Source of the DNA: Allosphingosinicella vermicomposti
Lineage (GTDB): Bacteria; Pseudomonadota; Alphaproteobacteria; Sphingomonadales; Sphingomonadaceae
Length of the DNA stretch: 64,000 bases
NCBI RefSeq assembly: GCF_003012815.1
Contig: NZ_PXYJ01000001.1
Location: forward strand, 124,001 to 188,000
Direction: 5' to 3'
The translations under genes were made by a program, and so were the position numbers. The notes beneath the pieces were generated by a model. The model was not told where the DNA came from. It was given only the letters and a program-made list of their open reading frames with translations, and ran no database searches. Positions 14,243 to 30,471 of this stretch are shown here, piece by piece (the stretch's first letter is position 1; the number at the start of each line of letters is the position of its first letter).

Positions 14243-15102
14243 TTCTTCTCCCTCTTCACCATCGTACCGATGCCCGCATCGGTCAGCAATTCGATCAACA
14301 GCGCATGGGCGACGCGGCCGTCGATGATGTGGGCGGTGTCGACGCCGCCATCGACAGCTTCGGCGCAGGCGCGGAGCTTGGGGATCATACCGCCCTGCAC
14401 ACTGCCGCTTTCGATCCGCGCGTTGAGCTCGCTCGACGTGAGGCGCGGGACGAGGGTGTCGGGATTGTCCTTGTCCTCAAGCAGGCCGGGCGCCGCGGTC
14501 AGATAGACGATCTTTTCCGCGCCCATGGCGACGGCGATGGCGCGGGCGGCCTCGTCGGCATTGACGTTGTAGGGTTGGCCGTTTTCGTCCGCGCCGATGG
14601 TCGACACGACCGGTGTCAGGCCTTCATCGAGAAGGCGGTGAAGCACGGACGGGCGGACGTGGCTGACATCGCCGACGAACCCCAGGGAGCTGTCGCGCGG
14701 CGTGACCGTCAGCAATCCGGCATCCTCACCCGAGACGCCGACCGCAACCGGCTCCTCGCGTGTTTCGCCGTTGATGGTGGCGACGAGATCGCGGTTGATC
14801 TTGCCGACCAGCACCATGCGGACGAGCTCCAGCGTCTCGGCATCGGTGACGCGCAGGCCATCGCGAAATTCCGGCTCCTTGCCGACGCGGCGCATCATCG
14901 CGTCCACCTGCGGTCCGCCGCCGTGGACGAGCACACAGCGCACGCCGACGCTGCGGAGAAGCAGGACGTCTTGCGCAAGGGCGCGGTCCAATTCCTTGTC
15001 GATGGCGGCGCCGCCAAGTTTCACCACCACCGATTTTCCGGCGAAGCGCTGGATATAAGGCAGGGCCTGAACCAGGATGTTTGCGGTTTGAACTGGCGTC
15101 AT
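14236..15102 (-). CDS. argB: Acetylglutamate kinase
   Basis: Phosphorylates N-acetylglutamate, the committed step of arginine synthesis. A 288-residue amino-acid-kinase fold: [10 protein letters not shown] (ATP phosphate loop), [13 protein letters not shown] (substrate loop), [17 protein letters not shown] (substrate and metal residues) and the C-terminal [10 protein letters not shown] motif. An N-terminal helix precedes the kinase domain, as in hexameric arginine-sensitive forms, so feedback inhibition by arginine is likely but inferred. It overlaps argJ by four bases. Confidence 0.94.
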
Positions 15103-16259
15103 GACGTCTGGCTATTCTCTTTGATGTAACCCGGGCCAAGATCGATGCCGATCGTGCGGGCGGAGCCGCTTCCGACGCCGAGGCCGACTTCGATCAGAAT
15201 GTCCCGGCCCTGCATATGTTTCGCCACGGCAGCCTTGTCGTGATCGATTTCCACGCCGCCCTGCGCCACACGGATGCCGCCATAAGCGACGCTGCAGCCT
15301 TCCATGCTGAACGTGACGCCCGCCGATCCCGCCGCGCCGAGCAGGCGGCCCCAATAAGGATCGCTGCCATACCAGCTGCATTTGACGAGGTTGTTTTCGG
15401 CAATGGACTTGGCGGCGATCCGCGCTTCCTCATCGCTCGCCGCGACGGTTACCCTGAGCGTGACGATCTTGGTCATGCCCTCCGCATCGGCGGCCATCAT
15501 GAGGGTGAGCTGCATGCAGGCCGTTTCGAGCGCCTTCGCGAATTCCTCCATGTCGGGACGGCCCTTCTTGCCCGATGCGAGCAGGATCACCGTGTCGTTG
15601 GTGGAGGTCGCGCCGTCGACGTTCAGCGTGTTGAAGGTGGCGTCCACGGCCTGCTTCAGCAGCGCCTGCAATTCGGCCTGGTCGACATCGGCGTCGGTCG
15701 TCAGGAAGGCGAGCATCGTCGCCATGTTGGGCGCGATCATGCCGCAGCCCTTGGCCATGCCGCCAAGCGTGAAGGTGGAGCCTTTCACCACCACTTCCTT
15801 GGGCTGGGTGTCGGTGGTGAGGATGCCCTTCGCCGCTTCGGTCGCGCCGCCGGGCGACAGGCCTGCCGCGAGCTTCGGGACGGCCACGAGGATCGTGTCG
15901 ATCGGCAGCGGGATGCCGATAAGGCCGGTCGAACAGACGAGCACATCCCGGGCATTGCAGCCCACCGCCTGCGCCGCCGCGGCGCACATCGCCTCCGCGT
16001 CCGCGCGGCCGGGTTCGCCGGTGCCCGCGTTGGCATTGCCCGAATTGACGATGATCGCCGCGCAGCGCCCGCCATTGGCCTCAAGCCGCGCGCGGCTCGC
16101 CACGACCGGAGGGGCGACGAACTTGTTCTGGGTGAAGACGGCGGCGGCAGTGACGGGCTGGCCGTCGGCCGTGGCGACCAGCGCCATGTCGTGCTTTGCG
16201 GCCTTGATGCCGGCATGAAGACCGGAGGCGACGAAACCTATAGCGGCGGTTACGCTCAT
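15099..16259 (-). CDS. argJ: Bifunctional ornithine acetyltransferase/N-acetylglutamate synthase
   Basis: ArgJ recycles the acetyl group from N-acetylornithine to glutamate and in many bacteria also makes acetylglutamate from acetyl-CoA. The 386-residue precursor should self-cleave before Thr181 ([10 protein letters not shown]), the conserved nucleophile that becomes the N-terminus of the beta chain. The motifs [10 protein letters not shown] and GGMAKGCGM are present. The start at 16259 overlaps the argC stop by four bases; a longer open frame upstream is inside argC. No argA or argE is seen in the window, which fits the cyclic pathway. Confidence 0.93.
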
Positions 16260-17272
16260 GGAAATACTCCTACGCAGGGTAAGCCTTCGGTCTCGTCGAG
16301 ACCCAGCATCAGGTTCGCGCACTGGATCATCTGGCCGGCGGCGCCCTTCACCAGATTGTCTAGGGCGGCGATGGCGACGACGCGGCGGGTGCGCGGATCG
16401 TAGCGGGCGGTGAGGTGGACGGCGTTTGACCCGAGCGTCCATTTGGTCGCGGGAAGCGCGTCCGACACATGAATGAAGGGCTCATCCGCATAAGCGGCCT
16501 TCAGCGCTTCGAGCGGCGCGTTCGCATCCATCTCCCGCGGGGCGGTGCCGTAGCATGTGGCGAGGATGCCGCGGTTCATGGGGACAAGGTGGGGGGTGAA
16601 CAGCACCTCGCCGCCCGTGCCCATTTCCATTTCCGCCGTGTGGCGATGGTTGAGGAGGCCGTAGGCCGCGAAATTTTCGTCCACGGCGCAGAAATGAGTG
16701 TCTGCCTTCGCGGCGCGCCCGGCGCCCGTCACGCCGGAGGCCGCGTCAACGATGATGCCGGTCTTTTCGATCAGGCCCGCATCGACCAGCGGTTTCAGGG
16801 CCAGGATCGCGGACGTCGGATAGCAGCCGGGCGCGGCGACGAGCCTGGCCCCCCTGATCCGGTCGCGCGCGATTTCGGGGAGGCCGTAGACGAACTGGGC
16901 GAGCAGGTCCGGCTCCTGGTGCGCTTCGCCGTACCAGCGTTCGAACGTCGCGGCATCGTCGAGCCGGAAATCGGCGCCGAGATCCACGAAAGCGACGCCG
17001 CTCCTCACCACGTCGGCGGCCATTTTCTGCGATTCCCCGTGCGGCATGCAGGCGAAAAGCAGATCGACCTGTTTCAAATGCGCGGGATCGAACCGCTCAA
17101 ACCGCGCATCAGGATAAGCGAGCGCGAGATGGGGATGAACCGAGGCGAGGGTCTCACCCGCCTGGCTATCGCCGAAGAAAAGAACGGGCGTGAAGGCTCC
17201 ATGCGCGGCGCAGAGCCGCAACAGCTCCCCGCCCGCATAACCCGATGCGCCCAATATGCCGACTTTGATCAT
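16256..17272 (-). CDS. argC: N-acetyl-gamma-glutamyl-phosphate reductase
   Basis: The NADPH-dependent reductase of the third arginine step. [16 protein letters not shown] is the nucleotide-binding loop, APGCYPTSA holds the catalytic Cys150, and HRHTAEME has the active-site His. I chose ATG 17272 (338 residues, beginning MIKVG). An ATG at 17293 adds seven residues (MNVHIMQ) that are written entirely by the ARG-box palindromes, so the longer form would put the operator inside the gene. There is no clear Shine-Dalgarno before 17272. First gene of the argCJBFR operon. Confidence 0.9.
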
Positions 17273-17273
17273 C

Positions 17274-17306
17274 TGCATAATATGCACATTCATGCATAAT
17301 TATGCA
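17274..17306 (-). promoter_or_regulatory. Tandem ARG boxes (ArgR operator)
   Basis: Two palindromes, TGCATAATATGCA (17274-17286) and TGCATAATTATGCA (17293-17306), are centred about 20 bases apart, roughly two helical turns. This is the spacing and AT-rich dyad form of paired ARG boxes bound by an ArgR hexamer. They sit immediately before argC, and the operon encodes its own ArgR. Confidence 0.75.
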
Positions 17307-17310
17307 AGAG

Positions 17311-17390
17311 CGTCATTCCGGCGAAAGCCGGAATCCCGTGGAGAAGGGTGCCCTTTTCGTCATGAGACCCCGGCTTTCGCCGGGGTGACG
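17311..17390. repeat. Intergenic palindromic repeat (CGTCATTCCGGCGAAAGCCGG type)
   Basis: The left part CGTCATTCCGGCGAAAGC and the right part GCTTTCGCCGGGGTGACG are imperfect inverted arms ending in the CGTCA/TGACG termini common to such elements. Each arm also forms its own small hairpin (CCGGCGAAAGCCGG and CCCCGGCTTTCGCCGGGG). It lies just upstream of the ARG boxes. Confidence 0.65.
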
Positions 17391-17473
17391 GAGGTGGCGG
17401 CGGGGTGAAGGGGGGGCGACGAAGGGGTGACGAGCGGAGTAAGGGGCGGAGCGTGAGGGCTCCGCCCCGCATC

Positions 17474-18085
17474 TTATTTCAGGTTGAATTCGCCGCTAAT
17501 GAGCAGCTTTACGTCCGACCCTAGCGCCGGGGCGTAGGTGTTCATGCCGAACTGAGTGCGGTCGATCGTGCCTTCGGCGGAGAAGCCGGCGGTGTAGATC
17601 TTGGTCATCGGGCCGTCGGCGGCCTTGTTGAGCGTGACGGCCAGCGTGACGGGTTTCGTCACGCCGTGAAGGTTGAGGTCGCCGGTGACGGTCGCGGTGG
17701 TGGGGCCGGTGCGCTCGACCTTGGTCGAGGTGAAGGTCGCCTTCGGAAATTTTTCGACGTCGAAGAAATCGGCCTTTTTAAGGTGCCCGTCGAGCGCATC
17801 GTCATGCGTATCGACCGAATCCACGTCGATGGTGACGTTCAACTTGCTGTTTTCCGGATTGGCGCCATCCAGCGTCAGCTGCGCGTCGAAATCTGTGAAT
17901 TCGCCATAATAGGTCGAAAAGCCCATGTGGGAGACGCCCCACACGATCTTCACATGACTCTTGTCGAGCGCGTAACTGCCGCTCTTTACCGCTTCCGCCG
18001 CCGGAGCGGGCGCCGCCTGCTGGGTGGCGTGGGCGGTGGCGATGGTGGCCGTGACGAGGGAAGCGGCAATCAGATATTTGCGCAT
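17474..18085 (-). CDS. YceI-family periplasmic lipid-binding-like protein
   Basis: A 203-residue protein with signal peptide MRKYLIAASLVTATIATAHA. The start is set by CTGGAGAC upstream. The mature part has the YceI pattern: SYALDKSHVKIVWGVSHMGF, FTDFDAQLTLD, DVDSVDTHDDALDGHLKKAD, FFDVEKFPKATFTSTKVE, NLHGVTKPVTLAV and a terminal GSDVKLLISGEF. YceI proteins form a lipocalin-like barrel that binds polyprenoid lipids in the periplasm. The physiological ligand is not known. A single-gene unit with a palindromic repeat downstream. Confidence 0.9.
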   Translation of the reverse strand: MRKYLIAASLVTATIATAHATQQAAPAPAAEAVKSGSYALDKSHVKIVWGVSHMGFSTYYGEFTDFDAQLTLDGANPENSKLNVTIDVDSVDTHDDALDGHLKKADFFDVEKFPKATFTSTKVERTGPTTATVTGDLNLHGVTKPVTLAVTLNKAADGPMTKIYTAGFSAEGTIDRTQFGMNTYAPALGSDVKLLISGEFNLK

Positions 18086-18234
18086 GAATGTCTCCAGGGG
18101 TGATGGATGATGCCGGACGTAAAGGGTCGCGCGGTTTTGCGAAAGACTATTCACATGCATTAATCCGTTGCGGATTGCGCAACGCTGGCCGGCAGCCGTT
18201 CGGGTGTGGGTGTTGGGACTTGTGTTGGCTGGAA

Positions 18235-18366
18235 CGTCCTTCGACAGGCTCCGGACTAGCGGGTGGTGTGCGGGGTGCGGAGCTACCAAGTCATAGGCCC
18301 GTTCCAAGCTGCCCAACCCTTACAGCCCCCGCCCGCAACCGTTAGTCCTGAGCTGGTCGAAGGACG
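18235..18366. repeat. Inverted pair of CCTTCGACAGGCTCAGGACTAG repeats
   Basis: A copy at 18235-18263 (CGTCCTTCGACAGGCTCCGG onward) faces an inverted copy at 18341-18366. The same core recurs near 21550-21704 and 24792-24864. The 440-base gap between the YceI gene and 18526 holds this pair and nothing else I can support as a gene. Confidence 0.65.
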
Positions 18367-18525
18367 GTTCCAGCTTGCGCCGCGCTTCGACGGTCCAGAC
18401 CCAGCGGATGAATGAGGCAGGTTGAACGTGATGAGGCGTTCGCCGACATTGCCGATGTTGCGCGACACGTGAGCGATGCGCCCAATTCCGTTTCCACGCG
18501 TTATGCATCCGAAAGGAGAACAGCC

Positions 18526-18708
18526 ATGGAAGGCAGGAACGGCCAGCTCGTTGACGAGGACGTTATGGAAACCGCCTCCGTCGCACCGCCCGAACCCCGC
18601 AAAGAGGAAAATGGTCAGAAGGAGCGCCAGCAGGGGCAGGGCGACTCAGGACATTCCGATCGGGATCAAAACCAGGCAGAGCCCATTATCCGACCATCGC
18701 CAGACTGA
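18526..18708 (+). CDS. Small hydrophilic protein, probably disordered
   Basis: ATG 18526 follows GAAAGGAGAACAGCC, a strong Shine-Dalgarno with good spacing, and gives a 60-residue acidic/polar peptide (MEGRNGQLVDEDVMETASV, then Glu/Lys/Gln/Asp-rich). It has no hydrophobic segment and no family I know. An upstream in-frame ATG at 18412 lacks a ribosome site. The composition resembles other small stress-associated disordered proteins of this window, but I see no EcfG promoter here. Confidence 0.5.
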   Translation: MEGRNGQLVDEDVMETASVAPPEPRKEENGQKERQQGQGDSGHSDRDQNQAEPIIRPSPD

Positions 18709-18976
18709 CGCCTACCGGCGCGAACCCCAAAAAACTGTGGAAAACTTCATGACGTGGAAGGGGCCGCAAACCTCTTCTACGCCGCACGCATGGCCGGTTT
18801 TCCGCATTTCCATGTGCCTGGCACTGGGTAATTTCACCTTGTTTCGCAGGCGATTTAATCATTGCGTGTTAAGGCTTTGCATGATTCACTCGTCCTTGGG
18901 AGCGGGGAAGATCAAATTCATGTCCGGGAAAGCCGGGCGGAACCATGATCTTTCCAAGGGCAAGAGGAGTGGGGTC

Positions 18977-19525
18977 ATGAGTACACAGGTGAAGCCGGCG
19001 GACGGCACGCTCGCGCTGGTCGAGATGAAGGAGTTCGCAACATTTCCGGCCGCGACGCAGCGCTATATCCGCCGCTCGCTGGACGTGGGGCTTAATCGTC
19101 GCGACGCGCTGAAGCGCTGGTCGCGCAATGCCAACGAAGCGGCGAGCATCCGCGCGCAGGAGCATGTCTATCGGCGCCTCGACCATATCCGCGATCATGT
19201 GCCAGACGATAGTGGCCTCGATGCGATGGAGCCGATGATGGGCCCGCTCATCACCGCGACGGCGTTCGATCTGGGTGAGGGGAAGCTCAGTGATTTCGCG
19301 TCCTACCGTTTTCTGTACGAGCGGTTGATCGGCGCGGCGGTGCGGCCGTGGCTACCCGCGGCTTTCTGTTCGGCGGCTGCACTTCCGCACCTTCACCCCG
19401 ACCGGAGGCGCCTCCTCCTCCAGTCGATCAGCGAAGCGGCGGCGACGGCGCCGGGCTGGTCGAACCGGGAAGCGGTATTCTTCCCCGAATGGGTGGAAAA
19501 GGTCGATCTGACCGTCGCCGGATAG
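18977..19525 (+). CDS. Hypothetical cytosolic protein (182 aa)
   Basis: ATG 18977 is preceded by AGAGGAGTGGGG. The protein is rich in charged helices (YIRRSLDVGLNRRDALKRW, QEHVYRRLDHIRDHV) and shows no signal peptide or membrane helix. No family is recognised. The same frame is open for 500 bases upstream, but that part shows no coding character and no start with a ribosome site. The 268-base gap before it has no gene that I can see. Confidence 0.6.
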   Translation: MSTQVKPADGTLALVEMKEFATFPAATQRYIRRSLDVGLNRRDALKRWSRNANEAASIRAQEHVYRRLDHIRDHVPDDSGLDAMEPMMGPLITATAFDLGEGKLSDFASYRFLYERLIGAAVRPWLPAAFCSAAALPHLHPDRRRLLLQSISEAAATAPGWSNREAVFFPEWVEKVDLTVAG

Positions 19526-19541
19526 GCGTTAACCGATATGG

Positions 19542-19582
19542 ATGTTGCATGAACCGGACGTAGTTTTGGGTTCATGCAACAT
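19542..19582. repeat. Perfect 14-bp inverted repeat (operator or hairpin)
   Basis: ATGTTGCATGAACC (19542-19555) and GGTTCATGCAACAT (19569-19582) are exact inverted copies with a 13-base spacer. No T tract follows on either strand, so a plain terminator is not well supported; a regulator site or a transcript hairpin is possible. Confidence 0.55.
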
Positions 19583-19646
19583 CGGGCATCATCTCCGTGT
19601 TTCTAGTCCCGTCCGCCCCGTGCGGGCGAGTTTTCGGGAGAGTGTG

Positions 19647-19988
19647 ATGCGTAAATTGATATTGGCCGCGGTCGCCGCCGCGATGATGCCGGTGGCGCCA
19701 GCCTTGGCGGATAGCCCCCGCTCCGATTATCGCGACTATCGCCGCGACGTTCGCGAGGCCCAGCGCGACTATTATCGCGACGTGCGCCGTGCCGACAGCC
19801 GCCGCGATGTACGGGAAGCCCGCCGCGATTATCGACGCGACATGCGCGAGGCGCGCCGCGACTATCGCCGCGACTATCGCCGCGATACGCGCGACTGGCG
19901 ACGTGACCACCGCCGGTGGAACAACAATGGCTGGACCGATTACAACAATCGCTATTGGGACGGCTATCGCTGGCGTTACCGGCGCTGA
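19647..19988 (+). CDS. Exported Arg/Asp/Tyr repeat protein (RcnB-like N-terminal part)
   Basis: A 113-residue protein with signal peptide MRKLILAAVAAAMMPVAPALA. The mature part is built from degenerate RRDYRRD/VREARRD units, a highly charged helical array, and ends WRYRR. Similar arrays precede the C-terminal domain of RcnB-family periplasmic proteins, but the Trp/Tyr-rich RcnB domain is reduced here to WNNNGWTDYNNRYWDGYRW. It may be a truncated relative or a separate repeat protein. GGGAGAGTGTG provides the ribosome site. Confidence 0.65.
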   Translation: MRKLILAAVAAAMMPVAPALADSPRSDYRDYRRDVREAQRDYYRDVRRADSRRDVREARRDYRRDMREARRDYRRDYRRDTRDWRRDHRRWNNNGWTDYNNRYWDGYRWRYRR

Positions 19989-20064
19989 GGCCCTTCACTT
20001 CTATTGACCTTGTAACGGCGCCCCTCCATCCTGTTACTAATGTAGCGGGGCGGAGGGGCTTTCC

Positions 20065-20991
20065 ATGAATAATCGACTTTGCAGAATTTCAGCGGTGGTT
20101 TTGCTGACCATTTTCGGGACTCAGCCAGCTCCAGCAAATGCGTCTCAACCGGCGGAAAGCCAAGAATTGCCGTCCAGCGTGATCCGGAATTCGGTGGGTT
20201 TCATTCAAGGCTATATCGGATCGAGCGGACCTCATTGGTTTTTGGTCGATACGGGCGCTAACCGTTCGGCGTTCGACACGTCCATTTCCCAGGCGCTCGC
20301 TCTTCCCGCTGGGGCATCGACAAAGGTGGAGGGATCGGCAGGAACCATCGAAGCGTCATCCGTAGACGTGGCCGAGGCCCATATAGGCGGCATCACGGTG
20401 CATAACCTCAAGCCGACCACATACGATCTGTCGGGGTCTCTGGCGCCGGACGGGCATCGGATCGCCGGAATCCTCGGCTATGACGCGTTGAAGGACCATG
20501 CAATCCTGTTCGACCGGACGAGGGGTGTCGTGCGCATCGCGGCGAAGGCGAACTTGCTTGCCGATCTCTCAAAGGCCGAGATCGTGCCTTTCGAGCTCGA
20601 CAACAATATTCCGAGCATTGTCGCTGCCATCGACAGCGAGGCTGTCAAATTACGGCTGGATACCGGCGCCTCCATAGGTGATGGGCCGACAAGTTTCGTG
20701 AATGTCACAGAAGCATTTTACGAGAGGTTGAAGGCGTCGAATGGGAAGCTCGAGCCTTACACGCATTTCACGGCGAGCGGTGCCGGTGGCGAAATAAGGA
20801 TTCCCGTGGTCAAGGCTTCCTCGTTTCGGGTCGGGCAGCTTGAAATCCGTGAACCCCATCTGATCGTACAGCCCAGAACCGGCTATTTCGCCCGGCCCGA
20901 CGCAATCGGCTTTCTTGGCGCTTACGCCTTTCAGAGCCGATCAGCCTTTATCGTCGATTATCCGGGGAAGCGCCTTATCCTGCTACCCTGA
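20065..20991 (+). CDS. Exported retropepsin-like aspartic protease
   Basis: A 308-residue protein with a signal peptide (cleavage near ANA-SQ) and two aspartyl-protease-like half domains. The first has FLVDTGANRSAFD with a later IAGILGYDAL; the second has LRLDTGASIGDG with IGFLGAY. Each half thus holds a DTG catalytic triplet and the paired hydrophobic-hydrophobic-Gly flap element, so the two halves could form a pseudo-dimeric active site in one chain. GGAGGGG precedes the ATG. The substrate is unknown; the periplasm is the expected location. Confidence 0.8.
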   Translation: MNNRLCRISAVVLLTIFGTQPAPANASQPAESQELPSSVIRNSVGFIQGYIGSSGPHWFLVDTGANRSAFDTSISQALALPAGASTKVEGSAGTIEASSVDVAEAHIGGITVHNLKPTTYDLSGSLAPDGHRIAGILGYDALKDHAILFDRTRGVVRIAAKANLLADLSKAEIVPFELDNNIPSIVAAIDSEAVKLRLDTGASIGDGPTSFVNVTEAFYERLKASNGKLEPYTHFTASGAGGEIRIPVVKASSFRVGQLEIREPHLIVQPRTGYFARPDAIGFLGAYAFQSRSAFIVDYPGKRLILLP

Positions 20992-20995
20992 TCGG

Positions 20996-21472
20996 TCAAT
21001 CGTGCCGGGGCTTCCCTTTCAGGACGAATTGTTCGTTGACGCGCACGTGGCGCGTGGCGACCGTCACTTCGGCGAGGAAGAGGAGGAGGCCGAGGGTGAG
21101 GCTGATCATCGCCGCGATGAACAGCAATGAGACGGGGATCGCGAAATTGATCGTGACGAGATCGGCCACGAACAACACGACCACCACCAGACAGATGAGC
21201 AAGGCGGCCGCAGTGCAGAGGCCGATCGCCCAATGGGTGTAGGCCATGCGCCGGTCGAGCACGGCGAGGGCGCGGATATCGGCCGCGCGCAATTCGCCCG
21301 TCTCCTCCGGCACGCGCGCCTCGATCCGCCGCGCATGATCGACGACGCGGGCAAGGCGATGGGCAAGCACGTTCAGGATGCTGCCGATCCCGGCGAGCAG
21401 GAAAACCGGTGCCACGGCGAGCTGGATGATATGCGCGATCTGCGAGATGTTGGCGTCGATAACGTCGGTCAT
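20996..21472 (-). CDS. DUF2721-family membrane protein
   Basis: A 158-residue protein with an N-terminal hydrophobic helix (IQLAVAPVFLLAGIGSIL), a conserved cytosolic stretch NVLAHRLARVVDHARRIEA, and two further membrane helices (IGLCTAAALLICLVVVVLF and IPVSLLFIAAMISLTLGL). This order is the DUF2721 family, whose function is unknown. It converges with the protease gene, with a four-base gap. Confidence 0.82.
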   Translation of the reverse strand: MTDVIDANISQIAHIIQLAVAPVFLLAGIGSILNVLAHRLARVVDHARRIEARVPEETGELRAADIRALAVLDRRMAYTHWAIGLCTAAALLICLVVVVLFVADLVTINFAIPVSLLFIAAMISLTLGLLLFLAEVTVATRHVRVNEQFVLKGKPRHD

Positions 21473-21549
21473 TAGGCGCGACCATGCGGGGCCGTCACGG
21501 GGGCGTCAATCTGTGTTCTTGCTTTTCGCGGCTGGTGGGGTGGACCGGG

Positions 21550-21704
21550 CTTCGACAGGCTCAGCCCTGGCGGGGTTGGGGTAGGCTGTATTTCCCCACG
21601 GACTGGTGGGGGTGAACCGGCCTCGACAAGCTCAGCCCTTGCGGGTGGAGTCATCGGCTTCCCCTTATCCACGCCGCCGCTAGTCCTGAGCTTGTCGAAG
21701 GACG
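21550..21704. repeat. Cluster of three CTTCGACAGGCTCAG repeats
   Basis: Copies at about 21550-21575 and 21621-21646 run in one orientation and an inverted copy lies at 21677-21704. They share the core of the elements near 18235 and 24792. The gap from 21473 to 21734 holds nothing else I can support. Confidence 0.6.
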
Positions 21705-21734
21705 ATCCAGTACGCACCGCACCTGCGGCGGCGA

Positions 21735-21929
21735 TCAGCCTCCGTTGGTGGTCGTGATCTCGACATCCACTTTTTCGGGCGTATCCGCGCCGGCGAAGAT
21801 ACTGTCGCGGAACAGGAAGAGTGCGAGGAGAACGAGCAGGACAAGCACGATCAGGGCGATCGTGCCGCCGCCTCCGCCGCTGCGCGTTTCGACCACGGTG
21901 ACATTTTCCTCGCGGGGGCGTTCGTCCAT
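21735..21929 (-). CDS. Small single-pass membrane protein under a stress promoter
   Basis: ATG 21929 follows GGGAGATTGACG and gives 64 residues: a polar N-terminus, a Gly run (SGGGGG), one strong membrane helix (IALIVLVLLVLLALFLF) and an acidic/Thr C-terminus. An upstream in-frame ATG at 21998 lacks a ribosome site and would include the promoter. The EcfG-type promoter at 21963-21988 makes general-stress expression likely. The function is unknown. Confidence 0.65.
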   Translation of the reverse strand: MDERPREENVTVVETRSGGGGGTIALIVLVLLVLLALFLFRDSIFAGADTPEKVDVEITTTNGG

Positions 21930-21962
21930 CGTCAATCTCCCTGATGATTGTGATGGCGGAAC

Positions 21963-21988
21963 GAACGTCTGCATTGCGCGCCGGTTCC
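21963..21988 (-). promoter_or_regulatory. EcfG-type general-stress promoter
   Basis: On the minus strand GGAAC (21988-21984) is followed after 16 bases by CGTTC (21967-21963), matching the EcfG consensus. It lies about 35 bases before the start of the small membrane protein gene at 21929. Confidence 0.65.
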
Positions 21989-22013
21989 CGAGCACCACCT
22001 CTTCCAGACAAGC

Positions 22014-22045
22014 GAAAGGGCCGCCAGACCTCAGCCTGACGACCC
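22014..22045 (-). terminator. Rho-independent-like terminator of a small transcript
   Basis: On the minus strand GGGTCGTCAGGC and GTCTGGCGGCCC form a 12-bp stem (three G-U pairs) with a TGAG loop, followed by TTTC. It closes the small unit that begins near 22187. Confidence 0.55.
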
Positions 22046-22100
22046 TTCCAACATGGTCAGCGGCCGGAGAGGCTCCAGCCCGGGAGAATGAAAGAAGGCC

Positions 22101-22157
22101 TTAAGCCTCCGTCTCCCGAACGAACCGAACCGACCTCTTAGCTGAACCATGAGACAT
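22101..22157 (-). CDS. 18-residue small ORF with a 14-nt perfect Shine-Dalgarno
   Basis: ATG 22157 opens an 18-codon frame (MSHGSAKRSVRFVRETEA) ending in TAA at 22101. AAAGGAGGTGATCC (22172-22159) lies one base upstream and is complementary to the whole 3' tail of 16S rRNA. The core GGAGG is seven bases from the ATG, the ideal spacing. The peptide is basic in the middle. Downstream on the same strand follow an 8-bp hairpin at 22080-22062 and a terminator at 22045-22014. It could be a true microprotein, a leader peptide, or part of a regulatory RNA that binds ribosomes. There is no homologue I can name. Confidence 0.5.
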   Translation of the reverse strand: MSHGSAKRSVRFVRETEA

Positions 22158-22192
22158 CGGATCACCTCCTTTCGCTCGTTGAAGATGAGACG

Positions 22193-22221
22193 AATATGAT
22201 TCGGGTCGAGTCGCCGATCAA
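22193..22221 (-). promoter_or_regulatory. Candidate housekeeping promoter of the small transcript
   Basis: On the minus strand TTGATC (22221-22216) and CATATT (22198-22193) are separated by exactly 17 bases. The predicted start near 22187 leaves a short leader before the perfect Shine-Dalgarno. Confidence 0.45.
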
Positions 22222-22326
22222 GACTTGTTCGAAACTAAATTCCCGATAAGATTCATCGCTTCGCGCCAAATCCGGACCGCCATGCCGGTCAGGCTCCACA
22301 TGCCGCGCGGCGCGATGGCGCTCCCT

Positions 22327-22866
22327 TCATCTTCGGCAGTCTTCGACCGTCCGGGCGACTTCGGGCCAGGCCGGGAGGATCAGCATCGGCAGGCCCGCCG
22401 CTTCCACCGAAAAGCGCCCGCGGCTGAACGCCATGCTGTCGAGCAGGGGATCCTGCGCGGCGAGCGAGGCCGCCGTGCGGGGCATCGGATCCTGCGCCAC
22501 GGTCGCGGGCAGGCTGCGCACGGTGAAGGATGTGCGGATGGCGAGGGCGGGCGAGGTTGCCGCCCCCTCCCGTTCCAATGCGATCCGGCCGCTGGCCTTG
22601 TCGCAGCGCACCGTGAACTGCCCCTCGCTCGCGGGCACGCCGAACATGGCGGCGGATGTCGCGCCCTGATCGCGGTAGAACCATGTGCCCGGCGTCAATG
22701 GAATGTCCGCCCAATTTTGCGGCGCGGCGGGTGGCGGCGCCGGTGCGGGCGGGGGGGGCGGGACAGGGGGCGGCGCCGGCCGTGGGGCAGGGGCTTCGGG
22801 CTTTGGAACACAGGCTGCGGCGGCGAGGGCGGCGCCGGTGAGCAGCAGATGACGCGACAGGTTCAT
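22327..22866 (-). CDS. Putative lipoprotein with proline-rich linker
   Basis: ATG 22866 follows GGGAGAAG and gives 179 residues. The signal MNLSRHLLLTGAALAAAAC has a lipobox ending at Cys19, and a proline/alanine-rich linker (about residues 21-50) leads to a globular domain. That domain begins WADIPLTPGTWFYRDQG, contains TVRCDKASGRIALERE and ends with VEDCRR. The domain is common in sphingomonads as an uncharacterised exported protein. The two Cys of the domain may form a disulfide. No function is assigned. Confidence 0.7.
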   Translation of the reverse strand: MNLSRHLLLTGAALAAAACVPKPEAPAPRPAPPPVPPPPPAPAPPPAAPQNWADIPLTPGTWFYRDQGATSAAMFGVPASEGQFTVRCDKASGRIALEREGAATSPALAIRTSFTVRSLPATVAQDPMPRTAASLAAQDPLLDSMAFSRGRFSVEAAGLPMLILPAWPEVARTVEDCRR

Positions 22867-22985
22867 AACTTCTCCCTTTGACGGTTGCACGGGGCTTGGC
22901 GCGCGTGACGAACCGGTTAATGGTGCGGGTCTTAAACCACAAACGGCCGATGGACGAGGCCGTGCCATGATCTTTGGAGCCGATG

Positions 22986-23306
22986 ATGCGCCGAGCCCGG
23001 TCGATTGCCTATCTTGTGCCCTTCGCGCTGATCGCATCCTGCGCCCAGCCGTTCGAAGGCCGCGTTGCGACGCGGCTGTCGGAAGCGGGCCTGTCGCGGC
23101 CGATGGCGGAGTGCATGGCGGAACGCTGGACGGACCGGCTGACCGTGTTTCAGCTGAACAAGATTTCGAACCTTGCCGACGATCTAAAAGGCGACAAGCG
23201 CCGCCTGACCGTGGCGCGCTTCATCGACCGCGTGCGAGCGGTGAACGATACCGAGATTTTCGAAGTCGTATCGGCCTCGACCGTGGCGTGCGCGCTCAAG
23301 GCTTGA
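22986..23306 (+). CDS. Small putative lipoprotein
   Basis: The start ATG 22986 has GGAG six bases upstream; an ATG three bases earlier is also possible. The 106-residue product begins MRRARSIAYLVPFALIASCA, a signal with lipobox (LIASC). The mature part is a helical, charged domain with two more Cys (AECMAERW and TVACALK) at its ends that could bridge. It is divergent from the neighbouring lipoprotein gene. The family is not recognised. Confidence 0.62.
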   Translation: MRRARSIAYLVPFALIASCAQPFEGRVATRLSEAGLSRPMAECMAERWTDRLTVFQLNKISNLADDLKGDKRRLTVARFIDRVRAVNDTEIFEVVSASTVACALKA

Positions 23307-23316
23307 ACGCCAAACC

Positions 23317-23412
23317 TCAACGCGCGTTGCGGACGGCCCACATGAGCATGCGCCCGAACAGGGGCCAGCCCCCGCGGGACAATGATCCGGATCGTGGTGC
23401 GATACTAGCCAT
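23317..23412 (-). CDS. 31-residue small ORF with good ribosome site
   Basis: ATG 23412 follows GAGGAG at seven bases and opens a 31-residue frame (MASIAPRSGSLSRGGWPLFG, then a short hydrophobic/basic tail) ending in TGA at 23317. It is small and unsupported by homology. The ribosome site is the main argument for it. Confidence 0.35.
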   Translation of the reverse strand: MASIAPRSGSLSRGGWPLFGRMLMWAVRNAR

Positions 23413-23486
23413 CGTTCATCTCCTCGCACCCAGCCGTAGAGGACGGCGGTTGCGGTTCGATGACAAAGGGTAAGACCCGATAAGCC

Positions 23487-23618
23487 TTAGACGCGATCCT
23501 TGCGGCGGCGGGCGATCGCCTGCCGCTTATTGTACTGGTGCCGCGAAAAAAGCTCGTAAGCGGCAAAAGGTGCCGCCACGGCGAGCGCCGCGAGACCGAA
23601 AAGCGCAAATTCTGTCAT
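23487..23618 (-). CDS. 43-residue small membrane protein
   Basis: A short frame from ATG 23618 to TAA at 23487. It encodes one N-terminal membrane helix (MTEFALFGLAALAVA onward) followed by YELFSRHQYNKRQ and a strongly basic tail (AIARRRKDRV), a plausible N-out/C-in anchor. The ribosome site is weak (GGGG). The helix-plus-basic-tail design looks like a real small membrane protein rather than chance. Confidence 0.5.
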   Translation of the reverse strand: MTEFALFGLAALAVAAPFAAYELFSRHQYNKRQAIARRRKDRV

Positions 23619-23673
23619 GGCCGCGCCCCTACTTTTTGCCGGCGAAAAGTTCAACCCCGCAATCGACTAAACC

Positions 23674-24291
23674 CTAGATCGGGACGACGTGCCTATGATG
23701 CCAGCTGAGGATCGCCGCCGCGCCGCGATGCGGGCGCCAAGGTTCGGCAAGATTACGCACCGCTTTTTCCGTGGGCTTTTCGGGAAGGCCGAGGATGCGG
23801 CCAATCTCGATCTGGACGGCCAAGTCGCCAGCGGGCCACATGTCGGTGCGTCCCTCCGCGAACAGCAGATAGATTTCCGCCGACCAGCGGCCAATGCCTT
23901 TGACCTTTACGAGCTTGGCGATTGCCTCCTCATCGTCGGCGGGCAGGTTGAGGAGGTCGAGGCGACCCGAAAGCACCTCGTCGGCCAGGCTATGCGCGTA
24001 AAGTGCCTTCATCCGGGACAAGCCCGCGCCGCGAAGCGTCTCCTCGCTCGCAGCGGCGACACGCGCGGGATCGTCGGCACCGCCGACCGCGGCGTCGAGC
24101 TTGTTCCAGATCGCGGCGGCTGCCTTGATGCTGACCTGCTGCCCGACAATCGCTCGCAGCAATGTCACATAGCCGGGGGCACTGATCCGGGGTTCGGGAT
24201 AGCCGATAGACGCGATGACTCGCCCAAAGGCGGGCTCGATCCCCGCCAGCGCATCCAGCGATTCCTTCAATCGTTCCGCAGAAATCCCCAC
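23674..24291 (-). CDS. DNA-3-methyladenine glycosylase II (AlkA-type)
   Basis: A 205-residue HhH-GPD DNA glycosylase that removes alkylated bases. GQQVSIKAAAAIWNKL is the conserved helix, LVKVKGIGRWSAEIYLL the helix-hairpin-helix, and DMWPAGDLAVQ carries the catalytic Asp. The N-terminal TBP-like domain of E. coli AlkA is missing, so it resembles the shorter AlkA forms common in alphaproteobacteria. It is divergent from the ferredoxin gene. Exact substrate range is not predictable. Confidence 0.88.
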   Translation of the reverse strand: MGISAERLKESLDALAGIEPAFGRVIASIGYPEPRISAPGYVTLLRAIVGQQVSIKAAAAIWNKLDAAVGGADDPARVAAASEETLRGAGLSRMKALYAHSLADEVLSGRLDLLNLPADDEEAIAKLVKVKGIGRWSAEIYLLFAEGRTDMWPAGDLAVQIEIGRILGLPEKPTEKAVRNLAEPWRPHRGAAAILSWHHRHVVPI

Positions 24292-24378
24292 TGACCTCGC
24301 CTCGCTTGATTTGACCGGGCCCGCCTAGCATAGACGCGCCGGGATGCGCTCCCGTTTCTTGCGCTAAAAGGACAACGG

Positions 24379-24696
24379 ATGCCGAAACTCACCATCGTTA
24401 CCCGTGACGGATCGGAACATGTCGTCGAAGGGCGAGCGGGTTACAATGTCATGGAAGTGATCCGCGAGGCGGGTATCGACGAGCTTCTTGCCCTGTGCGG
24501 CGGCTGCTGTTCGTGCGCGACCTGCCATGTTCAGGTTGATCCGGACTGGGCCGACAAATTGCCCGCGCGGAGCGGCGATGAGGAGGATCTCCTCGACAGT
24601 TCGGATCATAAGGGACCGACGAGCCGGCTGTCGTGCCAGCTGATCTTCGGCCCGGAGCTCGACGGCCTGCGGGTCACCATTGCTCCGGAGGATTGA
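24379..24696 (+). CDS. [2Fe-2S] ferredoxin, adrenodoxin type
   Basis: A 105-residue ferredoxin. The cluster ligands lie in [12 protein letters not shown] (pattern C-x5-C-x2-C), with the fourth Cys in [10 protein letters not shown]. One extra Cys lies inside the cluster loop (GGCCSC), a small departure from the usual GG.C.C. AAGGACAACGG precedes the ATG. It carries single electrons to monooxygenases or related enzymes; the FprA-like reductase at 7820-9130 is a conceivable partner but is not linked. Confidence 0.88.
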
Positions 24697-24791
24697 GGCC
24701 AGGTGAATTGTCCGGCAAGGGCCGGATTGAGCGGCCAACGCAGGCAGGCCGGCCCGGGCAGCTTGCGCTTTAACGCTCAGTCATTTCCACC

Positions 24792-24864
24792 CCGCTAGTC
24801 CAGAGTTTGTCGAAGGACGGTGCACGCTGGTGCCGTCCTTCGACAGGCTCAGGACTAGCGGGGG
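24792..24864. repeat. Inverted pair of CCTTCGACAGGCTCAGGACTAG repeats
   Basis: A copy at 24792-24820 on the minus strand and one at 24833-24864 on the plus strand form a long hairpin between the ferredoxin and the lipoprotein gene. The arms match the elements near 18235 and 21550. Confidence 0.65.
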
Positions 24865-24884
24865 AAGGGCATTTGGAGACCGGT

Positions 24885-25754
24885 TTAAAGGCCGATCAGG
24901 GCGTCTGGAATACCCTTGTCGAACAGGCCGGTTTTCCAAGTCAGCGTCTTTAGACCGGCCTTGGTCACGGGGCCCTCATCCGTATTGTTGGTGAGGATTT
25001 CGGCATCTGTCGTCAGCGTGAACGTGCCATTGGGTTGCTTCATCACGCCGGCGCCATCCTTCATCATTTCCGCCATCGCGATATTGACCACTGCTCCAGT
25101 CATTTCCCCTTCCTGGGATTGGACGAAAGCGGGGGCGGAAACACGCACCTTGTTATCCGTGCGGCGCGCGGCCTGGACGAAGGGCGCCATGATGTTCACG
25201 CCGTCGAAAACCGGAAAGATGAAGTCGCGGTCGATCTGGCCGGAAATTTCATATTCGACGTCGAATATGCCTGGTTTGTTGCTGTAAGAGACCTTCTTCC
25301 ACCCCTTTTGCAGCTGTATGCGGCGGGCAAATTCGGTCATTGTCGCCGGGTCGGAGGGGTCGAGGCCGCCGAACATCGCCTTCATCGTTTCGAAGGTTTT
25401 CTTATCCTGCTCGACCCGGGCCGTCTTTTCGGCCTCCCAATCCTTACGCTTCTGCGCGAGCTCTTCCTCGCTGCAGGGGCGGGTGTCCGAATTCCCGTCC
25501 TCGTCTGCTTCCGTAAAGCAAATTTCATTATCCGGGTTGAAGGTTTCCGCCGCGCGGTCCGCCGCTTCCTTGGCGGCCACCTGCTGCATGATGCCGAACT
25601 GGGTCAGGAACTGGATCTCACCAGTATAACGATAGGTGAAGCTGCCATCCTTACGAATCGTCATCGCCGCATCGTAATTGCCCGGAGTCAGGAACTGACA
25701 CCCGGTGAGGACAAGCGCCACCGCGCCCGCCGCCAGAGCCTTGAACATCTTCAT
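24885..25754 (-). CDS. Putative lipoprotein of unknown function (289 aa)
   Basis: ATG 25754 follows GAGGGGG and gives a signal MKMFKALAAGAVALVLTGCQ with a clear lipobox (LVLTGC). The mature part is mostly polar, with a long charged helix at about residues 90-130 (EEELAQKRKDWEAEKTARV) and beta-rich flanks. Two Cys (EICFTEAD and TRPCSEEE) flank the helix base. No family is recognised. The frame is open for 120 further codons upstream inside the methyltransferase gene, which I exclude. Confidence 0.7.
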   Translation of the reverse strand: MKMFKALAAGAVALVLTGCQFLTPGNYDAAMTIRKDGSFTYRYTGEIQFLTQFGIMQQVAAKEAADRAAETFNPDNEICFTEADEDGNSDTRPCSEEELAQKRKDWEAEKTARVEQDKKTFETMKAMFGGLDPSDPATMTEFARRIQLQKGWKKVSYSNKPGIFDVEYEISGQIDRDFIFPVFDGVNIMAPFVQAARRTDNKVRVSAPAFVQSQEGEMTGAVVNIAMAEMMKDGAGVMKQPNGTFTLTTDAEILTNNTDEGPVTKAGLKTLTWKTGLFDKGIPDALIGL

Positions 25755-25779
25755 GATAACGCCCCCTCTTTGCGTTGTT

Positions 25780-26523
25780 TCAGCCCTTATGAGCGGCAAC
25801 GGCATAGAGGGCAATGGCGGCCGCATTTGATACGTTGAGGCTTTCGATCCGGTCGCTGATCGGCAATTTGGCGAGCGCGTCACAATGCGTCTGCGTATTC
25901 TGCCGCATCCCTTCGCCTTCCGCGCCAAGGACAAGCGCGATCTTTTTCGGCCCCAAAGCGTCGGCGAGGAAAGTGTTGGTGTGGCCGGTGAGGCCAACCC
26001 GCCAGAAGCCTGCTTCCGCGATTTCCTCCAGCGCGCGGGCGAGATTGACGACGCGCACCCAGGGCACGGTCTCCAGCGCGCCGCTCGCCGCCTTGGCAAG
26101 CGCTCCGGATTCGGGCGGCGCATGCCGGTCCTGCGTCACGATGCCGAGCGCGTTGAAGGCTGCGGCCGAGCGTAGGATCGCGCCGACATTGTGCGGGTCG
26201 GTCACCTGATCGAGGACGAGGAGTGGCCGCCCCTCCTCCGCCTCGTCGAGCAGATCGCCGAGCCAGATGTCGGGCAGCTTCTCCACTTCCGCGACGATCC
26301 CCTGATGCGGCGCGTCCTTCGGCACCAGGCGGCCAAGATCGGCGGCGTCGGCATAAGTGACGGGGGTAGCAGGATCGAAATCATAATCGACCGCAGCCTC
26401 ACGCGTAACCGAAACGCGGATGATGCGCCGCTCCGGATTGGCGAGGGCGGCGGAGACGGCGTGGCGACCCCAAAAGCGGGGACGATTCTGCGGATTGGTG
26501 GCTTGACGGGCTTTACGGCGCAT
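25780..26523 (-). CDS. rlmB: SpoU-family 23S rRNA methyltransferase (RlmB-like)
   Basis: The N-terminal substrate-recognition domain (RPRFWGRHAVSAALAN) is followed by the SPOUT domain with its three signatures: LDQVTDPHNVGAILRSAAAF (motif 1), ALVLGAEGEGM (motif 2) and LPISDRIESLNVSNAAAIAL (motif 3, knot). RlmB 2'-O-methylates G2251 of 23S rRNA. The length of 247 residues from ATG 26523 fits. A more upstream ATG at 26562 is possible, and neither start has a strong ribosome site. The target nucleotide is assigned by similarity. Confidence 0.82.
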   Translation of the reverse strand: MRRKARQATNPQNRPRFWGRHAVSAALANPERRIIRVSVTREAAVDYDFDPATPVTYADAADLGRLVPKDAPHQGIVAEVEKLPDIWLGDLLDEAEEGRPLLVLDQVTDPHNVGAILRSAAAFNALGIVTQDRHAPPESGALAKAASGALETVPWVRVVNLARALEEIAEAGFWRVGLTGHTNTFLADALGPKKIALVLGAEGEGMRQNTQTHCDALAKLPISDRIESLNVSNAAAIALYAVAAHKG

Positions 26524-26651
26524 GGGTTTCCAATGGCCTTGCCCGCGCGCCAAGGCAAGCATGATGCAAAAAGCGCGATTTAATCGTGCGTGGCGCGTTG
26601 ACAGCGCGGCGCCCTTTCGCCATGTGGCGCCTTCCTATCTTGAGGCACCAT

Positions 26652-26737
26652 GGACAGGTGGCCGAGTGGTTAAAGGCAGCAGACTGTAAATCTGCCCGCG
26701 TGAGCGTACGCTGGTTCGAATCCAGCCCTGTCCACCA
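26652..26737 (+). tRNA. tRNA-Tyr (GTA anticodon)
   Basis: An 86-nt class II tRNA with a long variable arm. The acceptor is GGACAGG with CCTGTCC, then A and an encoded CCA. The anticodon loop CTGTAAA gives GTA, reading UAU/UAC. The T arm is CTGG-TTCGAAT-CCAG. Confidence 0.95.
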
Positions 26738-26782
26738 TCCTGCTTCGCTCCTTGCGGAGCTACGCAGGACAGGTCCTGATCC

Positions 26783-27034
26783 ATGCATTATGTTTATTTG
26801 ATCGAAGGCGCCGGTGGAGCCCGCTATGTCGGCTGCACCAATGATTTGAAGCGCCGTTTGGCGGAGCATAATGCCGGGGAATCATCGCACACCAAAAGGC
26901 TCATTCCGTGGCAGCTGGTGACATATATTGCGTTTCAACATGAGCAAAGTGCGCGCGCGTTCGAAGCTTATTTGAAGCATGGCTCCGGTCACGCTTTTGC
27001 AAAAAGACACTTCTGGACAAGGCCTGCCCATTAG
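26783..27034 (+). CDS. GIY-YIG endonuclease-domain protein
   Basis: An 83-residue single-domain protein of the UPF0213/YhbQ kind. MHYVYLIEG and GGARYVGCTNDLKRRLAEHN form the GIY-YIG core with the catalytic Tyr (YVGCT) and Arg (RRLAEHN). The conserved Glu is probably in EQSARAFEAYLKHGSG. It may nick or cut branched nucleic acids; the biological role of this small group is not settled. It lies between two tRNA genes, 45 bases after tRNA-Tyr. Confidence 0.85.
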   Translation: MHYVYLIEGAGGARYVGCTNDLKRRLAEHNAGESSHTKRLIPWQLVTYIAFQHEQSARAFEAYLKHGSGHAFAKRHFWTRPAH

Positions 27035-27089
27035 TGCAGATGTCCGCGCTACCAGCAGGGCCTGCCCTGCGAAGCCTTGGCGCAGCAGG

Positions 27090-27163
27090 GCGGGTATAGC
27101 ATAGTGGTAATGCTCTAGCCTTCCAAGCTAGCTAGAGGGGTTCGATTCCCCTTACCCGCTCCA
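27090..27163 (+). tRNA. tRNA-Gly (TCC anticodon)
   Basis: A 74-nt cloverleaf: acceptor GCGGGTA with TACCCGC, discriminator T, encoded CCA; anticodon loop with TCC reading GGA/GGG; T arm GGGG-TTCGATT-CCCC. Gly identity also fits the U73 discriminator. Confidence 0.95.
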
Positions 27164-27337
27164 GCCTCGCCCTTCCTAAAAATCCTGAATATAGATTGCG
27201 CGAAAGCCCGCCACGCATCCGCAAACGCTATGCGGGAAGGCGCGTTCTGGGGCTAAGCAATTAGCCGTAAATTGAAATGGCTGTTTCGCGATGGACCCAA
27301 AAAGGCAGATCGAAGGTTGAACTTGCGGGAGGGTTTC

Positions 27338-30471
<3,134 letters not shown>

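Follow-up and report, generated by a model that had tools for sequence, protein, structure and literature searches.

Why should a short element of the minus strand carry a Shine–Dalgarno (SD) sequence complementary to the whole 3′ tail of 16S rRNA in front of a reading frame of 18 codons? The element was analysed within the window, by which the entire stretch of 64,000 nt is meant, and lies at positions 22227 to 22013 of the minus strand, on which a promoter-like region, the SD, the ORF, nested hairpins and a terminator-like hairpin follow one another in this order. The features are collated in Table 1. The initial annotation had proposed a small dual-function transcript at this place, and all of the parts that it named (TTGATC-17-CATATT, SD, 18-codon ORF, 8-bp hairpin and terminator-like hairpin) were found at the coordinates given there. 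Two details required correction: the SD, described as the 14-nt AAAGGAGGTGATCC at 22172–22159, is present but becomes 15 nt long once the G before it, at 22173, is included, and the 3′ hairpin is present with a predicted stem of 17 bp (22050–22013) rather than the claimed 12 bp, followed by no real T run.

Table 1. Features of the minus-strand element (position 1 is the first letter of the window).
Feature	Position	Strand	Remarks
Promoter-like region, upstream part, CAAGTCTTG	22219..22227	(-)	Overlaps -35; CAAGNCTTG in 26/26 same-genus loci (own included)
Putative -35, TTGATC	22216..22221	(-)	Consensus match
GANTC site 1, GACTC	22208..22212	(-)	Between -35 and -10; GANTC enriched in class I promoters
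GANTC site 2, GAATC	22198..22202	(-)	Touches -10; GANTCAT in 26/26 same-genus loci
Putative -10, CATATT	22193..22198	(-)	17 nt from -35
SD, GAAAGGAGGTGATCC, perfect 15-nt complement of 16S 3′ tail	22159..22173	(-)	
18-codon ORF, MSHGSAKRSVRFVRETEA*	22101..22157	(-)	ATG at 22157, TAA at 22103-22101; stop at apex of predicted rod
P1 5′ arm, CATGGTTCAGC, codons 3-6	22141..22151	(-)	Invariant within genus
P1 3′ arm, GCTGACCATG	22052..22061	(-)	
Inner rod, P3 (CGGGAGA/TCTCCCG) and P4 around stop codon	22081..22118	(-)	Double changes: 2 pairs in P3, 2 pairs in P4
Local hairpin P5 (8 bp), or 3′ half of P2 with codons 8-10	22062..22080	(-)	Rfam model hairpin at same place
3′ hairpin, predicted 17 bp, terminator-like, weak T run	22013..22050	(-)	Predicted fold
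Whole-model match, Rfam RF01867 CC2171	22018..22181	(-)	53.9 bits, E 8.5e-11, model 1-159, gathering score 75

Relatives of the element were sought by BLAST in 60 genomes (own included). Matches were obtained in 25/25 of the other genomes of the genus, in 9/10 of the family and in 0/24 of the other families of the order; among the nine family matches, one (G028, E 0.0075) is the GTG-start relative L045, and another, the lower-ranked locus L049, carries an altered SD. The start-region pattern (≤2 mismatches) occurred in 135 of 246 genomes of the order, which by a hand count of rows are 135/163 of the own family and 0/83 of the others. Within the class, the start motif (≤2 mismatches) was present in 32/385 genomes, and the reversed control pattern was unmatched among the matches listed. 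At least 119 stretches were returned by a scan of named genomes, mostly from Sphingomonadales and also from Brevundimonas, Aquidulcibacter and Phycosocius. A pattern scan of IMG/VR gave seven stretches, which look like bacterial elements or other genes and were not taken for phage genes.

The RNA of the window was predicted to fold with a z-score of −5.4, and 0/200 dinucleotide shuffles were as stable. When 26 same-genus loci were submitted to RNAalifold, 55 pairs were obtained, and for 14 of these one or more sequences had both partners changed. In this aligned set the 3′ hairpin was paired in 357/364 cells and had seven pairs with double changes, the inner rod (P3 and P4) had four, and the closing helix P1 had none because it is nearly invariant. 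P5 and the long-range pairing P2 compete with each other; double changes occurred in neither, and the paired cells amounted to 155/156 for P2 versus 150/172 for P5. Covariation, which had been proposed as a check, was accordingly seen for the 3′ hairpin and not for the 8-bp hairpin within these 26 loci. Between the classes, one P1 pair is compensatory (G–C in 115/120 class I loci, U–A in 39/39 class II and 12/18 class III loci), as judged by a permissive test in which any [AG]CxATG within 280 nt was accepted and in which the complementary base was absent in 5/120 class I and 6/18 class III loci. The three other bases at x, taken as a control, were found in 7–27/120 class I, 3–13/39 class II and 1–3/18 class III loci, the wrong bases being far rarer than the complementary one. 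P1 was weakly favoured thermodynamically in 38 distant loci (0.30 vs 0.23 in shuffled sequences), and 4/38 loci exceeded every one of 12 shuffles. In the predicted rod, the 5′ arm is made up by the ORF and the apex holds the stop codon. In L057, L077 and other class I loci of Sphingomonas, the stop codon and the closing helix are separated by additional sequence that includes a hairpin such as GGGGGGTATYCTCCCCCA.

At the gathering score, only two tRNAs were returned by Rfam for positions 15000–30000 of the window. The relation to RF01867 (CC2171) surfaced with the relatives' loci and a relaxed threshold: 11 of the 18 relatives' loci scanned exceeded the cut-off of that family, and the window element matched the model end to end at a score below the curated cut-off. 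Shared with RF01867 are the SD and start (model consensus GAAAGGAGGUGAUCCAGUGUCUCAU), the closing helix and the 3′ hairpin, and the alignment to the model also places the consensus 5′ segment GAAAGGAGGUGAUCC..UGUCUCAU in the window element. The consensus of RF01867 has a full SD with a GUG start, whereas the window element has AUG; where RF01867 has CAUUGUC/GACAAUG, the element has CAUGGUUCAGC/GCUGACCAUG; and the 18-codon MSHGSA ORF, the GANTC promoter and the score below the cut-off set the element further apart. The curated score excludes the element from RF01867, whereas its anatomy and E-value make it a relative. The element is thus a diverged lineage of the CC2171 kind that is specific to the family.

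At E ≤ 0.001, RF01867 was matched in 85/385 alphaproteobacterial genomes (13 over the cut-off; matches inspected in part) and in 1/14 control genomes, namely that of Caulobacter vibrioides. Two matches (E ≤ 1e-8 or better) were present in 13/23 genomes of the genus, one belonging to class I, the type of the window (MSHGSA..), and one to class II (MSHC..), which is closer to Rfam; in the window's own genome a single match was found. Among 37 genomes (23 of the genus), three passed the 75-bit cut-off, through three matches at the places of class II loci. CC2171 reportedly goes back to the 2008 Caulobacter sRNA survey of Landt. Within the literature searched, and leaving aside chance matches of the string, CC2171/RF01867 appeared in a table of the Rfam 15 paper and in a list of a Mesorhizobium survey, in neither of which a description of function was found, and the available portions of the reports on Caulobacter Hfq-bound RNAs (PMC11005374) and on Zymomonas transcription (PMC7566282) do not mention CC2171.

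Rfam types RF01867 as a gene for an sRNA, whereas the window element carries a reading frame that appears to be under selection. The frame test comprised 182 of 196 anchored loci (120 class I, 39 class II, 18 class III and 5 other); loci were dropped if they ended too early downstream or were duplicates over 90 nt, and L049 was left unanchored. The first in-frame stop of class I stood at codon 19 in 107/120 loci and after 15–20 codons in 120/120 (TAA 68, TGA 33, TAG 19), and the first stop in the other two frames was scattered from 5 to >100 codons. In class II the in-frame stop followed after 17–28 codons in 38/39 loci, L033 having no in-frame stop for 165 codons, and in class III after 21–26 codons in 18/18. 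A quick tree, from whose construction the stop codon was left out, required at least 36 changes in the type of stop and gave eight in the length of the ORF. Because the choice of the 107 loci with exactly 18 codons fixes the stop, codon 19 was recounted in all 120 class I loci, in which 108 stops, 12 sense codons and no TGG (0) were found. The distant set consisted of 40 weaker RF01867 matches from other families; two of these (L267 and L274) are without an SD, look false and were rejected as members, and one with a 55-aa ORF (L241) was set aside, leaving 37 distant members. An in-frame stop, a feature that the RF01867 model was not built to find, occurred after 14–35 codons in 37/37 of them (TGA 14, TAG 12, TAA 11) versus 12/37 and 2/37 in the other frames. 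The short reading frame thus looks selected as far as the comparison of sequences goes, and an RNA family filed as non-coding may be read by ribosomes. In Caulobacter, according to the accessible part of PMC4117421, the regions of most ncRNAs are not translated, and two earlier predicted ncRNAs are. In other alphaproteobacteria, L171, L172, L241 and L289 have a full-length or nearly full SD and an (A/G)TGTCT start before secreted-looking proteins of 55–59 aa (L171 and L172 were counted in the group 'other' of the frame test); a small protein gene may have arisen from the RNA there, or the start site of the RNA may have been co-opted.

That the ORF encodes a microprotein had been one suggestion of the initial annotation, and the length and stop of the ORF are indeed kept. 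The peptide itself was assessed in the 107 class I loci whose ORF is exactly 18 codons long, in which no sign of selection on its sequence was detected by entropy or synonymous fraction: over codons 7–18 the mean entropy was 1.09, 1.14 and 0.79 bits at codon positions 1, 2 and 3, so that the third position is less variable than either of the first two, and 58/264 single changes between close class I pairs were synonymous (0.22, vs 0.28 expected without selection; pairs not independent). By eye, peptides look unrelated between families, and the nucleotide motif GGAGCARCCTYC of several distant members is read in different frames (EQPS, RSNLF). Conservation of the peptide or of the two hairpins in relatives had also been put forward as decisive for the element; the hairpins and the ORF length are conserved, and the peptide sequence is not. 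These data bear on the view that the RNA is a plain mRNA of a functional microprotein, whose strong SD merely serves high expression. Such an mRNA would account for the selected frame and for a second codon that is TCN in 35/37 distant members, serine being specified by the synonymous TCT, TCG, TCC and TCA, but it is at odds with the entropy values, the synonymous fraction and the unrelated peptides, and we regard it as unlikely.

The microprotein view draws further on a relative in Sinorhizobium meliloti. The record concerned (L288) has an ORF, MSNEISDLVMDMGEVKESRQPSA, of 23 aa followed by a terminator-like hairpin; no annotated feature lies beneath it in the PLSDB table, which is incomplete, and similar DNA was found in 13 plasmid records of Sinorhizobium, Rhizobium and Shinella. 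The computed pI of the peptide is 4.177, and about 1.9% of random 23-mers fall within 4.15–4.21. SEP1 of S. meliloti is described in the accessible text of PMC10117765 as having 23 aa and a pI of 4.18, as conserved in Rhizobiaceae, as having the highest translation efficiency of 54 unannotated sORFs in ribosome profiling, and as giving a Western blot signal. With 23 aa and a computed pI of 4.18, the L288 peptide is probably SEP1, an identity based on length, pI and taxon only, and in that event a peptide of this family has been detected by Western blot. SEP1 differs in having been published as a small protein, and a link to CC2171 is absent from that part of the report (PMC10117765). One extra base is inserted into the SD of the S. 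meliloti relative, so a complete 15-nt match is dispensable in that case.

A different role for the ORF was considered from pairing between the SD and the ORF body of the same RNA. This pairing was in the best 5% of shuffles in 9/18 class III loci (0.9 expected), 13/37 distant members (1.9) and 7/39 class II loci (2.0), as well as in 17/120 class I loci (6 expected; loci not independent) and in 2/26 loci of the window's genus (1.3 expected). L182, L183, L185, L186, L188 and other class III loci have a CCTGGATCGTCGCCTCC-like stretch in the ORF (about +34 to +43 relative to the start codon) that is similar to the 16S tail and predicted to be able to pair with the own SD and start. A further type with a similar 14–16-codon peptide, VS[YN].KRCHLA..AR, was noticed in the IMG/VR contigs L281, L282, L283 and L285 and in L248, and its codons contain GTCACCTCG, which is complementary to the SD. 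By the pairing statistics, sequestration of the own SD is supported for class III and the distant members and weak for class I. The RNA could then be a self-regulated anti-SD switch, whose ORF contains a 16S-like segment that would bind the own SD and, once released, the SDs of other mRNAs; the excess of pairing in class III, distant and class II loci and the likeness of the class III CCTGGATCGTCGCCTCC to the 16S tail fit this, but the weak signal in class I and in the window's genus makes the switch a quite improbable account.

Complementarity was determined against the Sphingomonas 16S end, ...GGCTGGATCACCTCCTTTCTAAGG. The 15-mer GAAAGGAGGTGATCC is the exact complement of GGATCACCTCCTTTC, the 16S 3′ end on a Sphingomonas plasmid record, and is intact in the best 30 of the BLAST loci (30/30), each of which has an 18-codon ORF. 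In the own genome the 14-mer was found once at ≤1 mismatch, and in 11/11 genomes the element was the sole match of the 15-mer, the 16S genes seemingly lying outside the searchable sequence of these genomes. The exact 15-mer also occurs in 23/37 distant RF01867 members, a count that is no independent test of SD conservation since the search model favours the 15-mer. Long SD pairing beside a start codon has a parallel in Staphylococcus aureus, which is reported to rely on extended SD pairing in the passages available from PMC13009471; there the extended SD is general at initiation sites, whereas here one small RNA keeps the whole 15-mer. Capture of ribosomes had been another of the roles first suggested, and the RNA may have it. 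In one form of this idea the RNA would be an untranslated binder of the ribosome or of 16S rRNA, its 15-nt complement capturing 30S or pre-16S and the ORF being incidental. Complementarity to the whole 16S tail and the 15-mer of the distant members, read with the reservation just given, agree with such a binder; the stop position, kept through changes between TAA, TGA and TAG, and the start codons of the 38 distant loci (ATG 25, GTG 7, TTG 6), with nearly fixed SD spacing, do not, and we rate the untranslated binder as decidedly improbable.

In class I promoters (−110 to −26, 85 nt), 149 GANTC sites were counted in 114 loci, 85 of which had at least one; shuffles gave a mean of 34.5 and a maximum of 53, and the observed 1.31 sites per locus compare with a flank rate of 0.17. 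Class II had 7 sites in 38 loci and class III 8 in 18 (shuffle mean 5.1). A GANTC between −35 and −10 is present in the promoter-like region of the window, and the genome encodes a GcrA match (150 bits) and three N6/N4 methyltransferase matches, none assigned to CcrM. In Caulobacter, as stated in the available sections of PMC4287350 and PMC3667746, a GANTC between −10 and −35 goes with activation at 40–60 minutes of the cycle, and GcrA recruits polymerase to methylated promoters, respectively. The class I promoter points to a connection with the cell-cycle methylation clock, and by analogy the window element may be timed in the cell cycle. The Erythrobacteraceae-type class I loci L050, L085 and L089 have a GANTC by a −10-like ACATT/AAATT about 95 nt upstream of the ATG and, between this region and the ATG, the extra 5′ sequence GGCCAGCGG..

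Behind the element, a small membrane-protein gene (21929–21735) lies on the same strand about 80 nt past the hairpin, and the sequence of a short ORF and a terminator-like hairpin would suit a leader or attenuator of this gene. A leader had been among the roles first suggested, but the gene was found beside 2/182 loci only (tblastn, E 1e-4, flanks of limited length), and of the 13 loci at which the neighbour at 20996–21472 was detected by the same search, 12 have it in convergent orientation; the missing synteny argues against a leader as the general role, which was rejected, and leaves it very improbable for the element. As the downstream gene is not conserved, the RNA looks like a unit of its own. 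The dual-function sRNA rnTrpL/peTrpL is similar in being a small transcript with a translated ORF (14 aa), and differs, by the accessible text of PMC10117765, in being a leaderless trp attenuator, whereas the window element is SD-led and free-standing with no conserved gene behind it. Chance assembly of the motifs, for which nothing was found in favour, is refuted by the conservation, the fold z-score and the frame test, as well as by the start motif in 32/385 genomes compared with its control, and its probability is next to nil.

At the level of sequence, the locus is a conserved, structured and independently organised unit with a short frame under selection and a maximal SD, and the original proposal of a structured small transcript unit, in which a short ORF follows an unusually complete SD, is backed by the conservation, fold and frame tests. 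The best explanation, which in its entirety stands at about even in our estimation, is that the element is a stand-alone small transcript unit of about 170–180 nt, that it represents 'class I', a lineage of the Sphingomonadaceae with kinship to the CC2171 RNA family, and that it acts either as a regulatory RNA gated by translation or by draining initiating ribosomes, by which a throw-away peptide of fixed length would be translated. We infer that the element is transcribed and highly translated, that its peptide is irrelevant and that its expression is timed by methylation. The most economical mechanism is one in which the RNA regulates through its state, folded or ribosome-loaded: ribosomes would bind the RNA strongly and translate the throw-away peptide, translation would open the rod, of which the ORF is the 5′ arm, and after termination at the apex the RNA would refold. 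Since ribosome loading would open the rod and the RNA would then refold, the useful product would be the state of the RNA (ribosome-loaded or folded) and not the peptide. The timing may be tied to replication via CcrM methylation and GcrA.

This translation-gated RNA is supported by the end-to-end likeness to RF01867, the kept frame, the unconserved peptide, the lack of a conserved downstream gene, the GANTC sites and the fit with SEP1. Counted against it are the inserted base in the S. meliloti SD, the weak P1 of the distant members and L033; that long SDs can be ordinary, as indicated for S. aureus in the available part of PMC13009471; and that most ncRNA regions of Caulobacter are not translated, as given in the accessible part of PMC4117421.

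In the boldest mechanism, the CC2171 superfamily is a ribosome-titrating RNA of Alphaproteobacteria that would mimic a perfect start, engage initiating 30S and yield a meaningless peptide of fixed length, one copy in Sphingomonadaceae being switched on by CcrM methylation and adjusting translation capacity once per replication cycle; we think this unlikely to hold as a whole. An analogy is offered by 6S RNA, which binds RNA polymerase: the element would likewise occupy a core machine by mimicking its ideal binding site, with ribosomes here in the place of RNA polymerase. If translation were confirmed, the annotation of a non-coding family matched in 85/385 of the alphaproteobacterial genomes sampled would change, and the element would, if the explanation is true, represent a clean natural case of selection on the act of translation and not on the peptide.
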